DNA from: a virus
Direction: 5' to 3' (one strand)
IMG/VR virus record: IMGVR_UViG_3300023178_002129
Location: 1-48,022 of that record
Length of the DNA: 48,022 nucleotides
Part shown: in pieces, positions 8,100 through 29,194 of the stretch
Position numbering within the stretch: the stretch's first letter is position 1
How the letters are laid out: every line of letters starts with the position of its first letter
Made by a program: the position numbers and the translations under genes
Notes under the pieces: model-generated
What the model was told of the DNA's origin: nothing
Database searches by the model: none
The model's input: only the letters and a program-made list of their open reading frames with translations

Positions 8100-8533
8100 A
8101 TCATAGGGCTTGGTTTGAATCTCCCAGTATACGACTTGGTATGTGGAGAGAATTTCGACGTAGCCTTGACACAGAAAATATAATGGAAGTATGTGACACT
8201 GTTGTTAAATGGTGGCAAAGTGCTCCTCTTGTTAATATAGCTATTGATCCAGTTAATAGTAATCAATGGCCAACACCTTGGGAAATGCTACACCAAGGTG
8301 ACTTTTGTGAGAATAGTTTGGCATTGGGTATGAGTTATACAATTTATTATGCAAATTCTGATATACCAAATGAGTTACTATATGTAACATGTCTTGGTGA
8401 TTCTTTTCAGCGTTTGTGCACACTGATTGACAATAAACACTTGCTTAACTTTGAACGTGGTGTGATAAGTACATTACCCGGTGACGATTGCACTGTAAGT
8501 TATCGTCAAAAAATAAAAAATATTATAAAATAA
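8084..8533 (+). CDS. Conserved phage protein, unknown
   Basis: 149 residues, Trp-rich (WWQSAP, NQWPTPWEMLHQGDFCENS). The combination WP.PWE...G.FC...LALGMSYT is one I associate with T4-like marine phages but without known activity. Starts within the end of the fibre-like gene. Confidence 0.6.
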   Translation: MEQQLNHRAWFESPSIRLGMWREFRRSLDTENIMEVCDTVVKWWQSAPLVNIAIDPVNSNQWPTPWEMLHQGDFCENSLALGMSYTIYYANSDIPNELLYVTCLGDSFQRLCTLIDNKHLLNFERGVISTLPGDDCTVSYRQKIKNIIK

Positions 8534-8589: not shown

Positions 8590-10899
8590 ATGAGTAACAT
8601 TCAAGTAACAAAAAGAGATGGAAGTAAAGAAGCAATTGATTTAGACAAATTGCACAAAGTAGTTTTTTATGCATGTGATGGCATTAATGGAGTAAGTCCT
8701 AGCCAGGTTGAAATCAAAAGTCATTTACATTTCTATAATGGTATTACTAGTAATGATATTCAAGAAACATTAATTAAAAGTGCAAGTGAACTTATTGATG
8801 AAGATACTCCTAACTATCAGTGGGTAGCAGGTAGACTTATTGTTTATCATCTGCGTAAACAAGTTTATGATAGTTTTGAGCCATGGCCGCTAATTGACCT
8901 TATTGAGAAAAATATTGAAGACGGGTGGTATGACCCTGCACTATTAGAAGACTATTCTGCTGACGATTGGAACGAATTAAACGACTATATTAAACACGAA
9001 CGTGATGAAAACTTCACATATGCTGCAATGGAACAGTGGCGTGGTAAATATTTGGTACAAAACCGTGTAACTGGTGAAATTAAAGAAACACCACAAATGG
9101 CATATATGTTAATTGCTGCAACATTGTTTGCAAAATATCCAGTAGAAACACGTTTGCGATGGGTTAAGGATTATTATGATGCAGTCAGTAACTTTGATAT
9201 TTCTCTTCCTACTCCTGTTATGGCTGGTGTTAGAACTCCACAGCGCCAATTTAGTTCGTGCGTCCTTATTGAAACTGGCGATAGTCTTGATAGTATTAAC
9301 GCTACTACCAGTAGTATTGTAAAATATGTAAGTCAGAAAGCAGGTATTGGGATTGGCGCAGGCAGTATCCGTGCGCTAGGTTCACCAATCCGCAAAGGCG
9401 ATGCGTATCACACTGGCGTTGTTCCTTTCTATAAAATGTTCCAAAGTGCTACACGTAGTTGTAGCCAAGGTGGGGTGCGTAACGGTGCCGCTACACTTTA
9501 CTATCCGATTTGGCACTTAGAAGTTGAAGACCTGCTAGTACTTAAAAACAATAAAGGTATTGAAGATAATCGTGTGCGTCACATGGATTATGGTGTACAG
9601 TTTAATAAACTAATGTATGAGCGTCTTATCTCAGGCGGTGACATTACACTGTTCTCTCCAAGTGATGTACCAGGACTATACGAAGCATTCTTTGCAGACC
9701 AAGATAAGTTTAAAGAAATATACGAACGTGCAGAACGTAACACACGACTACGCAAGAAAACAGTAAAAGCATTAGAGCTGTTCAGTCAGTTTGTAGGCGA
9801 GCGTAAAGATACAGGACGCATTTACTTAATGAATGTAGATAATGCTAATACACACAGTTCATTTAAACAAGAAGTAGCACCTGTACGTCAGAGTAACCTA
9901 TGCTGTGAAATTGATTTACCAACAAAACCACTAAACGACTTTAATGATCCAGACGGTGAAATTGCACTATGTACACTAAGTGCTATCAACTGGGGTAATG
10001 TTAAAAAGCCAGATGATTTTGAAAAGATGTGTAAATTAGCAGTGCGTGGTCTTGATGCACTATTAAGCTATCAGCATTATCCAGTTATCGCAGCTAAGAT
10101 GGCTACAATGGGTAGACGTCCGTTAGGTATTGGTATTATTAACCTTGCATATTGGATGGCACGTAATGGAATGACATACAGCAACCCAGACTTAGAAATG
10201 ATTGACGAATATGCAGAAGCATGGAGTTACTATCTAATCAAAGCAAGTGCAGAGATTGCACAAGAGCAAGGTGCTTGTTTGTGGAATGAACAAACAAAAT
10301 ACAGTGATGGTATTCTTCCAATCGACACTTACAAAAAAGACGTTGATGAACTAGTACCGCATGTAGAGCGTATGAACTGGGATGGGTTACGTGGCATGTT
10401 ACAAGAAACAGGCATCCGTAACAGTACATTAATGGCATTGATGCCTGCTGAAACATCAGCACAAATTAGTAATGCTACAAACGGTATTGAACCACCACGT
10501 AGTTTAGTAAGTGTTAAGCAATCAAAACACGGTGTACTGAAACAAGTTGTACCTGGTATCCATCATCTTAAAAACAAATATGAACTACTATGGGATCAAA
10601 CAAGTCCTGAAGGTTACTTAAAGATTATGGCTGTACTACAAAAGTATATTGACCAAGGTATTAGTGTAAACACAAGTTATAATCCTACACACTATGATGA
10701 TGAAAAGATCCCAATGTCAACTATGTTACAGCACCTAATGATGTTCTACAAATACGGTGGTAAGCAATTATATTACTTTAATACATATGATGGTGCTGGA
10801 GAAATAGACCTTGACAAATTAGAACAAGGTGCTAATATCACTATTAACGAGGAAATTCAAATTAACGAAGATGAAGCATGTGAAAGCTGTGTAATCTAA
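8590..10899 (+). CDS. nrdA: Ribonucleoside-diphosphate reductase class Ia, large subunit
   Basis: 769 residues, the normal length for NrdA. It reduces ribonucleoside diphosphates to deoxy forms with the radical supplied by NrdB. Visible features include an N-terminal ATP-cone (KRDGSKEAIDLDKLHKVV), the redox cysteine in QFSSCVLIE, the NLCCEIDLP active-site segment (N, catalytic Cys and Glu), the second redox Cys in IALCTLSAINWG and the C-terminal CESC pair at 764-767 that takes electrons from glutaredoxin. First gene of an nrdA-nrdB-glutaredoxin operon; supplies dNTPs for phage replication. Confidence 0.95.
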   Translation: MSNIQVTKRDGSKEAIDLDKLHKVVFYACDGINGVSPSQVEIKSHLHFYNGITSNDIQETLIKSASELIDEDTPNYQWVAGRLIVYHLRKQVYDSFEPWPLIDLIEKNIEDGWYDPALLEDYSADDWNELNDYIKHERDENFTYAAMEQWRGKYLVQNRVTGEIKETPQMAYMLIAATLFAKYPVETRLRWVKDYYDAVSNFDISLPTPVMAGVRTPQRQFSSCVLIETGDSLDSINATTSSIVKYVSQKAGIGIGAGSIRALGSPIRKGDAYHTGVVPFYKMFQSATRSCSQGGVRNGAATLYYPIWHLEVEDLLVLKNNKGIEDNRVRHMDYGVQFNKLMYERLISGGDITLFSPSDVPGLYEAFFADQDKFKEIYERAERNTRLRKKTVKALELFSQFVGERKDTGRIYLMNVDNANTHSSFKQEVAPVRQSNLCCEIDLPTKPLNDFNDPDGEIALCTLSAINWGNVKKPDDFEKMCKLAVRGLDALLSYQHYPVIAAKMATMGRRPLGIGIINLAYWMARNGMTYSNPDLEMIDEYAEAWSYYLIKASAEIAQEQGACLWNEQTKYSDGILPIDTYKKDVDELVPHVERMNWDGLRGMLQETGIRNSTLMALMPAETSAQISNATNGIEPPRSLVSVKQSKHGVLKQVVPGIHHLKNKYELLWDQTSPEGYLKIMAVLQKYIDQGISVNTSYNPTHYDDEKIPMSTMLQHLMMFYKYGGKQLYYFNTYDGAGEIDLDKLEQGANITINEEIQINEDEACESCVI

Positions 10900-28724: not shown

Positions 28725-28726
28725 AT

Positions 28727-28782
28727 CTGTAGGCGTTACAAAGCGTATTTGGACTCCGGGGCGGTACCGGACGCCTCCACCA
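28727..28782 (+). ncRNA. ssrA: tmRNA acceptor piece (permuted ssrA, first part)
   Basis: Ends CGCCTCC-ACCA (28772-28782). The seven bases pair with GGGGGCG at 29039-29045 of the coding piece, with a G-U third pair, the alanine identity element. A 5-pair T stem TCCGG/CCGGA encloses a 7-base loop GGCGGTA, unlike the usual TTCGAAT. ATTTG before GGAC can pair with CAAGT of the coding piece as helix P2. Acceptor part before coding part is the two-piece, circularly permuted arrangement of alphaproteobacteria. The 5' end is approximate. Confidence 0.85.
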
Positions 28783-28800
28783 TAAACACATGAGGATATA

Positions 28801-28932
28801 ATGAATTGGGATTGGCACTGGATTAGTTGGTTTAAAGGAACTCCTTTTCAATGGGGTGACTTTAGATTCAATAGTGGCAAGCCATATAAAAGTTATAGAC
28901 TTGGACCATTACTTATTCGTGTGTTTATATAA
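28801..28932 (+). CDS. Small protein encoded in the tmRNA spacer
   Basis: 43 residues, ATG at 28801 with GAGG eight bases upstream, ending TAA at 28932. Trp-rich N-terminus (MNWDWHWISWFKG), then GDFRFNSGKPYKSYRLG and a hydrophobic end. The gene lies wholly between the two tmRNA pieces. Not recognised; the composition looks like a real protein and the ribosome-binding site is good. Confidence 0.65.
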   Translation: MNWDWHWISWFKGTPFQWGDFRFNSGKPYKSYRLGPLLIRVFI

Positions 28933-29032
28933 GCACACTGCCTTGAACTAGAAGTGGCAAAGGCGACGAACAGACTAAGTTACCCTTATTCGAAGGGGGT
29001 TACATGGGGGCGGATCCCATAGTCGGTGTGTT
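28932..29032 (+). ncRNA. Folded RNA in the tmRNA spacer
   Basis: A closing stem AGCACACTG (28932-28940) pairs with CGGTGTGTT (29024-29032). Inside are TGCC/GGCA, an imperfect GTTACCC/GGGGGTTAC arm and ATGGG-GGCGGAT-CCCAT (29004-29020). The last hairpin copies the 5-pair stem and GGCGGNN loop of the tmRNA T arm. It could be a processing signal for the precursor or a separate RNA. Confidence 0.5.
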
Positions 29033-29038
29033 TATGAT

Positions 29039-29194
29039 GGGGGCGAAATAGGTTTCGACAGGTAGGCAAGTTTACAAAACACAAATGCAAACGATAACTT
29101 TGCACCTTCTGGTTACGCTCTAGCAGCATAATTAAGGGGGCGGCCACTGCCTAGCAACAGAAGTGTGGCACTAAATACTAACGTTCAATAGAAC
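29039..29194 (+). ncRNA. ssrA: tmRNA coding piece (permuted ssrA, second part)
   Basis: Starts GGGGGCGAAATAGGTTTCGACAGG, the conserved tmRNA 5' element. The tag frame 29087-29131 reads ANDNFAPSGYALAA then TAA, ending in the LAA-type degron recognised by Clp proteases. After the tag, GGGC/GCCT and GCCAC/GTGGC (about 29137-29170) could form a pseudoknot, and GTTC-AATA-GAAC (29183-29194) a terminal hairpin. No CCA end follows, which confirms the permutation. The 3' end is approximate. It rescues stalled ribosomes together with SmpB. Confidence 0.9.

Follow-up and report, generated by a model that had tools for sequence, protein, structure and literature searches.

What occupies the 256 nt between the two pieces of this tmRNA gene, and is that content part of the tmRNA or cargo with a history of its own? 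The window, i.e. the whole 48,022-nt stretch that we analysed, is a linear IMG/VR virus record of about 48 kb from a T4-like marine phage. A sequence-only reading had proposed a permuted two-piece tmRNA whose spacer holds a protein gene and a folded RNA, which our analysis supports. From the comparisons described below, we consider it probable that, in marine (SAR11/OM43-type) T4-like phages, the spacer of the permuted tmRNA gene is a permissive slot in which the cargo can be swapped.

A complete permuted tmRNA gene

The tmRNA gene is located at 28726–29172, with the acceptor piece 5′ of the coding piece (Table 1). With cmscan, two covariance models match at full length and cover both pieces, RF04321 with 73.8 bits (cutoff 47) and RF01849 with 72.9 bits, which is above its gathering score of 50. 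The acceptor piece ends in CGCCTCC-ACCA and the coding piece starts with GGGGGCG. In the sequence and in the cofold, all seven pairs of the acceptor stem are formed between GGGGGCG (29039–29045) and CGCCTCC (28772–28778), including G3-U70. The cofold of the two pieces yields the acceptor, P2 and T stems, the T arm is present with an intact T-loop, and ARAGORN detects a resume codon followed by a degradation-type tag. Thus, the permuted order, the tag peptide, the fully paired acceptor stem with its G-U pair and the 256-nt gap are all present as initially read.

Two other gene structures were rejected. A standard one-piece tmRNA would have its acceptor end downstream of the coding piece, and it is ruled out as neither CCACCA nor a T-loop-like sequence occurs between 29194 and 31500; such a 3′ end had been named as one of two observations that would contradict the initial reading, and the other, a lack of RF01849 matches to the pieces, is contradicted by the scores above. 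A tmRNA interrupted by a group I intron is rejected by the intact T-loop and by Rfam, which gives no group I intron match in the window or the spacer. ARAGORN itself took a decoy GGGGGCG at 29006 (29006–29033, inside cassette 2) as the 5′ tRNA domain.

The tmRNA is surrounded by genes on the same strand. PHROGs matches in the window include ribonucleotide reductase genes and a dehydrogenase, and by inspection we found curli-type genes like those reported for Methylophilales phage Melnitz and pelagimyophages in the accessible text of PMC9004378.

Table 1. Features of the permuted tmRNA locus in the window and the evidence for each
Feature	Position	Strand	Evidence
Acceptor piece: P2 3′ strand, T arm, acceptor 3′ strand CGCCTCC, encoded CCA	28726..28782	+	RF04321/RF01849, cofold, identical in L248; 5′ boundary approximate
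Intervening spacer (putative cargo slot), 256 nt, two tandem stem-closed cassettes	28783..29038	+	Fold; same 256-nt tandem in L481 at 95.3% identity
Cassette 1: closing stem UAAACACAUGAG (28783–28794) with UUCGUGUGUUUA (28916–28927), enclosing a small protein gene	28783..28929	+	Predicted fold
43-aa ORF MNWDWHWISWFKGTPFQWGDFRFNSGKPYKSYRLGPLLIRVFI; GAGG ribosome-binding site at about 28793–28796; own stop TAA 28930–28932	28801..28932	+	dN/dS, family conservation
Cassette 2: 109-nt structured RNA, 13-bp closing helix and three hairpins, strongly conserved core UUGAACUAGAAGUGGCAA	28930..29038	+	Covariation, model R1
Coding piece: 5′ acceptor strand and D-like loop GGGGGCGAAAUAGGUUUCGAC, P2 5′ strand, tag frame, 3′ GCAACAGAA region	29039..29172	+	Covariance models, ARAGORN, cofold
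Tag reading frame ANDNFAPSGYALAA*	29087..29131	+	ARAGORN

Two cassettes in the spacer

The predicted fold of the spacer consists of two adjacent stem-closed domains. Cassette 1 starts with UAAACACAUGAGG and ends with UUCGUGUGUUUA, cassette 2 starts with UAAGCACACUG and ends with CGGUGUGUUUAUGAU, and the first three bases of cassette 2 are the UAA stop of the 43-aa ORF. The spacer had been described as one insert with a 43-codon frame and an RNA of roughly 100 bases; these contents are confirmed, whereas the single insert is replaced by two separately closed cassettes. Usually, the two cassettes occur singly. The ORF cassette alone makes up the whole spacer of 148–149 nt in L102, L107, L156, L196 and others, and of 167 nt in L004; the RNA cassette alone forms the whole spacer of 103–107 nt in L144, L208, L470, L475 and others. 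As the tandem arrangement recurs in L481, an assembly artefact is disfavoured.

For the ORF of cassette 1, differences at codon positions 1, 2 and 3 number 33, 49 and 220, and the median dN/dS is 0.118 (eight distinct family members). Judged from this substitution pattern, the 43-codon frame is a real gene under purifying selection, and the ribosome-binding site noticed in front of it is present as GAGG. The family is found in about 40 viral contigs, and in nearly all of them CCACCA precedes the start codon by exactly 18 nt. The protein matches no Pfam or PHROGs family, a tblastn search against named phages gave no match, and its AlphaFold model of four short strands is poor (pLDDT 60.9, pTM 0.30). 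In the predicted fold, the ribosome-binding site lies partly within the closing stem, and this overlap could hinder translation of cassette 1.

A few copies of window-type genes are also found outside an intact tmRNA. In L494, around 3655, the cassette with its stem arms lies inside another gene, and in L490 and L503 the ORF follows a different leader, with a remnant of the 3′ arm and the tmRNA 5′ domain kept. These copies suggest that the cassette is able to leave the tmRNA.

A new RNA family in cassette 2

The RNA of cassette 2 scores 104.3 bits with our model R1. In the alignment of 14 distinct R1 sequences, the 13-pair closing helix and the three hairpins have 98.5% of cells paired. Two-sided changes occur at 13 pairs, with none of 500 shuffles as high except for pair types (177 of 500), and sliding the helix partners out of register destroys the signal. 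Helix 2 is invariant and thus falls outside the covariation test. The structured RNA noted in the spacer is therefore borne out by covariation. Compared with 4227 Rfam models, cassette 2 had no match at E≤10, and in the spacer region only the tmRNA models match; a self-cleaving ribozyme, a riboswitch or another known RNA was rejected as having no Rfam match. By alignment and covariation, cassette 2 is an undescribed RNA family with a conserved core that is absent from Rfam.

We inspected all fetched contigs with the core motif and found R1 in 25 other viral contigs. It is located behind an acceptor end in each of these except L216, which is cut off at the contig end, and directly behind the CCA when it is the sole cassette. 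Among spacers without an ORF, a search for distant R1 similarity gave only weak matches at E 0.06–0.8. In 190 alphaproteobacterial genomes, R1 was detected in none, a weak negative as this search used stricter filters and no positive control.

The position of R1 raises the question whether the spacer elements act in cis on the maturation or regulation of the tmRNA, with R1 for example as a sensor or processing element, instead of being independent cargo. This would fit with R1 being seen only in tmRNA spacers wherever the context is visible, with its near-invariant core and with a closing stem that is conserved in independent named phages. However, one and the same tmRNA occurs with a 29-nt hairpin in L248 and with 10 nt in L249, and elsewhere with different RNAs or an ORF. 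Host tmRNAs need only 12 nt, and R1 is optional. We thus regard a cis-acting role as improbable and prefer the reading of R1 as swappable cargo.

Spacers across phages and hosts

To place the window among its relatives, we collected 162 distinct viral spacers from 231 loci, which form about 60 clusters. Exact-arm scans without length selection returned spacers of 10 to 376 nt. Later scans aimed at long spacers, and most loci are metagenomic; cargo counts are thus not usable as frequencies, and the clustering is approximate. For 158 of 159 spacers of at least 20 nt, at least six of eight closing-arm positions are paired, with stem-closed lengths of 20–410 nt; this near-universality is partly built in, as fetching by a single required arm favours the TAAACAC/GTGTTTA type. 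Closing-stem partners match at 7.96 of 9 positions compared to 7.00 for shuffled arms (shuffle maximum 7.33).

The spacers contain simple hairpins, structured RNAs or one of about 22 unrelated families of small-protein ORFs. These ORFs usually start 17–23 nt after the CCA and have a ribosome-binding site. Among 30 mutually dissimilar spacers of at least 105 nt, 25 are filled by an ORF, compared to 3.6 expected and a maximum of 8 in 300 rounds of dinucleotide shuffling. Some automatically listed ORFs are misframed: the 'MDNIF...' of L019/L062 is really the MDNQLW/MDREIW frame. Five further families with enough variation have dN/dS values of 0.12–0.30. Some spacer ORFs have homologues among free-standing phage genes, namely those of L206/L237, with 31 matches outside spacers, and those of the L016, L006 and L230 types. 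Only two cargo proteins match Pfam, both to uncharacterised DUFs and one below its cut-off. A likely membrane segment is found in 8 of the 22 families, which is a trend and not a test. Comparing spacer content among related phages, as had been proposed, thus shows that loaded spacers recur and that many of their cargoes are unrelated.

Named phages are also represented. Isolate Melnitz (L001) has an unannotated ORF in its tmRNA spacer, and similarity to the tmRNA identified stem-closed spacers of roughly 40–410 nt without an obvious ORF in L424–L430 (Mosig, RcSimone-Hastad, RcRudolph, Cp1R7A-A1, DSS3P8, vB_EliS-L02 and Phosso). The Sinorhizobium jumbo phage Phosso (L429) has the 410-nt spacer, and its gene was missed by ARAGORN.

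The gap in permuted genes had been described as usually short. This is correct for SAR11 chromosomes, where the spacers have 10–12 nt and the matched spans, 178–192 nt in 112 of 147 genomes, are too short to include cargo, and mostly correct for the other sampled alphaproteobacteria (5–76 nt with one outlier of 232 nt), but not for these marine phages. The outlier, L540 in alphaproteobacterial genome G229, is a chromosomal permuted tmRNA whose spacer has an internal repeat.

If the spacer were discarded anyway, its content might be neutral junk or a selfish insertion that is merely tolerated. The highly variable slot content, the simple hairpins and the repetitive 232-nt insert in hosts, and the mobile-element-like copies of the window family outside the tmRNA, including L494 with its stem arms in another gene, could be explained in this way. 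The dN/dS of 0.12–0.30 in six ORF families, the ribosome-binding sites at a fixed distance and the covariation of R1 speak against it, and we consider this explanation very unlikely.

Cargo and tmRNA are inherited independently

The closest relatives of the window differ depending on which part is compared. In L248, the acceptor piece is unchanged and the coding piece 99% identical, but the spacer is an unrelated 29-nt hairpin, and L249 has the same tmRNA with a 10-nt spacer. L481, on the other hand, shares 95% of the spacer sequence, whereas its acceptor and coding pieces are only 68% and 56% identical. Over all loci, we observed 74 pairs that share cargo (at least 85%) with coding pieces less than 70% alike, and 43 pairs that share the coding piece (at least 93%) with different spacers; the pairs overlap and should not be counted as separate events. 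The coding pieces of L170, L215, L156 and L144 are 97–99% alike in pairs, with four different cargoes. Judged from these identities, the cargo has a line of inheritance separate from that of the tmRNA. The simplest route for an exchange of whole cassettes would be recombination at the conserved ends of the tmRNA pieces, which are short.

Release of the cargo and a possible link to ribosome rescue

How could a tmRNA tolerate such different inserts? The acceptor stem and P2 would bring the two pieces into one fold. Directly inward of the CCA end, a conserved closing stem (UAAACAC.../...GUGUUUAUGAU) may hold the insert as a side loop, so that any insert would be tolerated. The tmRNA 5′ end is formed by RNase P, and the mature tmRNA stays in two pieces (PMC3985003, PMC3978253). 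For this reason, the insert should come free as a by-product of tmRNA maturation. With RNase P expected to cleave in front of GGGGGCG and a 3′ nuclease behind the CCA, it would leave as an RNA of its own whose ends are paired in a stem. The slot would be filled either with small protein genes, whose ribosome-binding site lies just inside the stem, or with structured RNAs. Since the tmRNA lies among same-strand genes, its cargo could be translated before or after cutting. The sequence-only reading had pointed out that processing would need to free an mRNA located between two tRNA-like halves, and this is the right consequence of the arrangement. The processing itself, like co-transcription, cargo translation, the recombination route and a benefit to the phage, is deduced from sequence comparison.

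The position of the stop codons suggests a further possibility. In roughly half of the ORF families, the stop lies 3′ of the RNase P site, at +13 or +42 nt, including +42 in Melnitz. In these families, the reading frame continues past the 3′ arm and terminates within the tmRNA 5′ domain, at +13 as ...VFMMGA[KN]* with the UAG of GGGGGCGAAAUAG. Most members of the window ORF family also stop beyond the site (+13/+14). For such families, maturation would leave a nonstop mRNA. The spacer mRNA might then be an arfA-like, self-limiting gene, in which the RNase P cut yields a nonstop message, the product is tagged by the very tmRNA that was co-matured, and translation up to the UAG opens the acceptor stem and delays maturation. 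In its widest form, the permuted tmRNA genes of marine phages would be a cassette-exchange system, whose interchangeable small-gene and RNA cassettes are set in the tmRNA precursor and released by its maturation. The cut would make about half of the families nonstop mRNAs policed by the tmRNA, linking cargo output to ribosome-rescue capacity in the course of infection.

However, this property is not conserved: about ten families stop inside the spacer (−12 to −22), and the window ORF ends 106 nt before the predicted cut. Its stop would thus survive the cut, whereas judged from sequence the +13 relatives would lose theirs. The UAG is moreover an old feature of alphaproteobacterial tmRNA, and frames that end there can be incidental. 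As other families and the window ORF stop inside the spacer, we keep the nonstop coupling as a rival and not as the main claim; we doubt the self-limiting gene, and the policed exchange system likewise seems unlikely.

Relation to known systems

The window shares with the alphaproteobacterial permuted tmRNA (RF01849, RF04321) the gene order, the tRNA-like domain, the G-U acceptor pair, the resume region and a tag ending in ALAA. It differs in the spacer, which has 10–12 nt in SAR11 and mostly less than 80 nt elsewhere, compared to 256 nt with a selected ORF and a structured RNA in the window. In tmRNA genes with a group I intron that carries a homing-endonuclease gene, the intron is removed from the T-loop by self-splicing. 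There too, a protein gene lies inside a tmRNA gene and is absent from the mature RNA; in the window, however, the insert separates two pieces that stay apart after processing, and the cargo includes no endonuclease. In E. coli, arfA is repressed by trans-translation and is separate from ssrA. The arfA mRNA is made nonstop by RNase III cleavage (PMC3989581), a model that would fit only the +13/+42 cargo families.

A phage two-piece tmRNA is already known from the accessible text of PMC9004378: the ssrA of Melnitz (MZ577095) lies beside T4-like genes as in the window. Its 142-nt spacer also carries an ORF with a ribosome-binding site (MFKWLSK...), but a different one, which is mentioned neither in the accessible text of PMC9004378 nor in record MZ577095. 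The 2025 tmRNA database, as far as its accessible text covers them, describes intervening sequences with extras, one an intact tRNA-Ala and one a repetitive element (PMC11915505). These resemble the window in their additional content but are single curiosities, and protein genes or cargo exchange are not reported in that text. In the searchable literature, i.e. outside subscription content, our searches did not turn up a description of exchangeable cassettes, protein genes or R1 in a tmRNA spacer.

The permuted-tmRNA spacer, so far treated as filler, would thus be a slot for phage genes, and its contents, new structured RNAs and at least 20 families of small proteins, escape annotation. Such a slot is a possible reason why permuted tmRNA might suit phages, and whether ribosome rescue is tied to gene expression of the phage could be tested directly in the existing isolate Melnitz.

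Rearranged loci

Several loci carry repeated tmRNA parts. In L491 (minus strand, 4375–3700) and L492, an acceptor-like piece is followed by a window-type ORF and a second acceptor piece; in L491, a second ORF of 41 aa and the coding piece follow. L140 (minus strand, about 4600–4100) is a tandem permuted tmRNA with the order acceptor piece, 99-nt spacer, complete tag-less tRNA-like domain (about 90 nt), second spacer and coding piece. The middle unit resembles the tmRNA of phage DS6A, which reportedly consists of the tRNA-like domain only. In L271 (369–857), two spacers are parted by a short remnant of the tmRNA 5′ domain and CCACCA, and the close relative L270 has a single spacer. L110 contains two complete permuted tmRNA genes (8151–8446 and 9078–9439) with tRNAs between them. 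Lastly, in L178 (1719–1923), a manA-motif RNA lies directly downstream of a phage permuted tmRNA.
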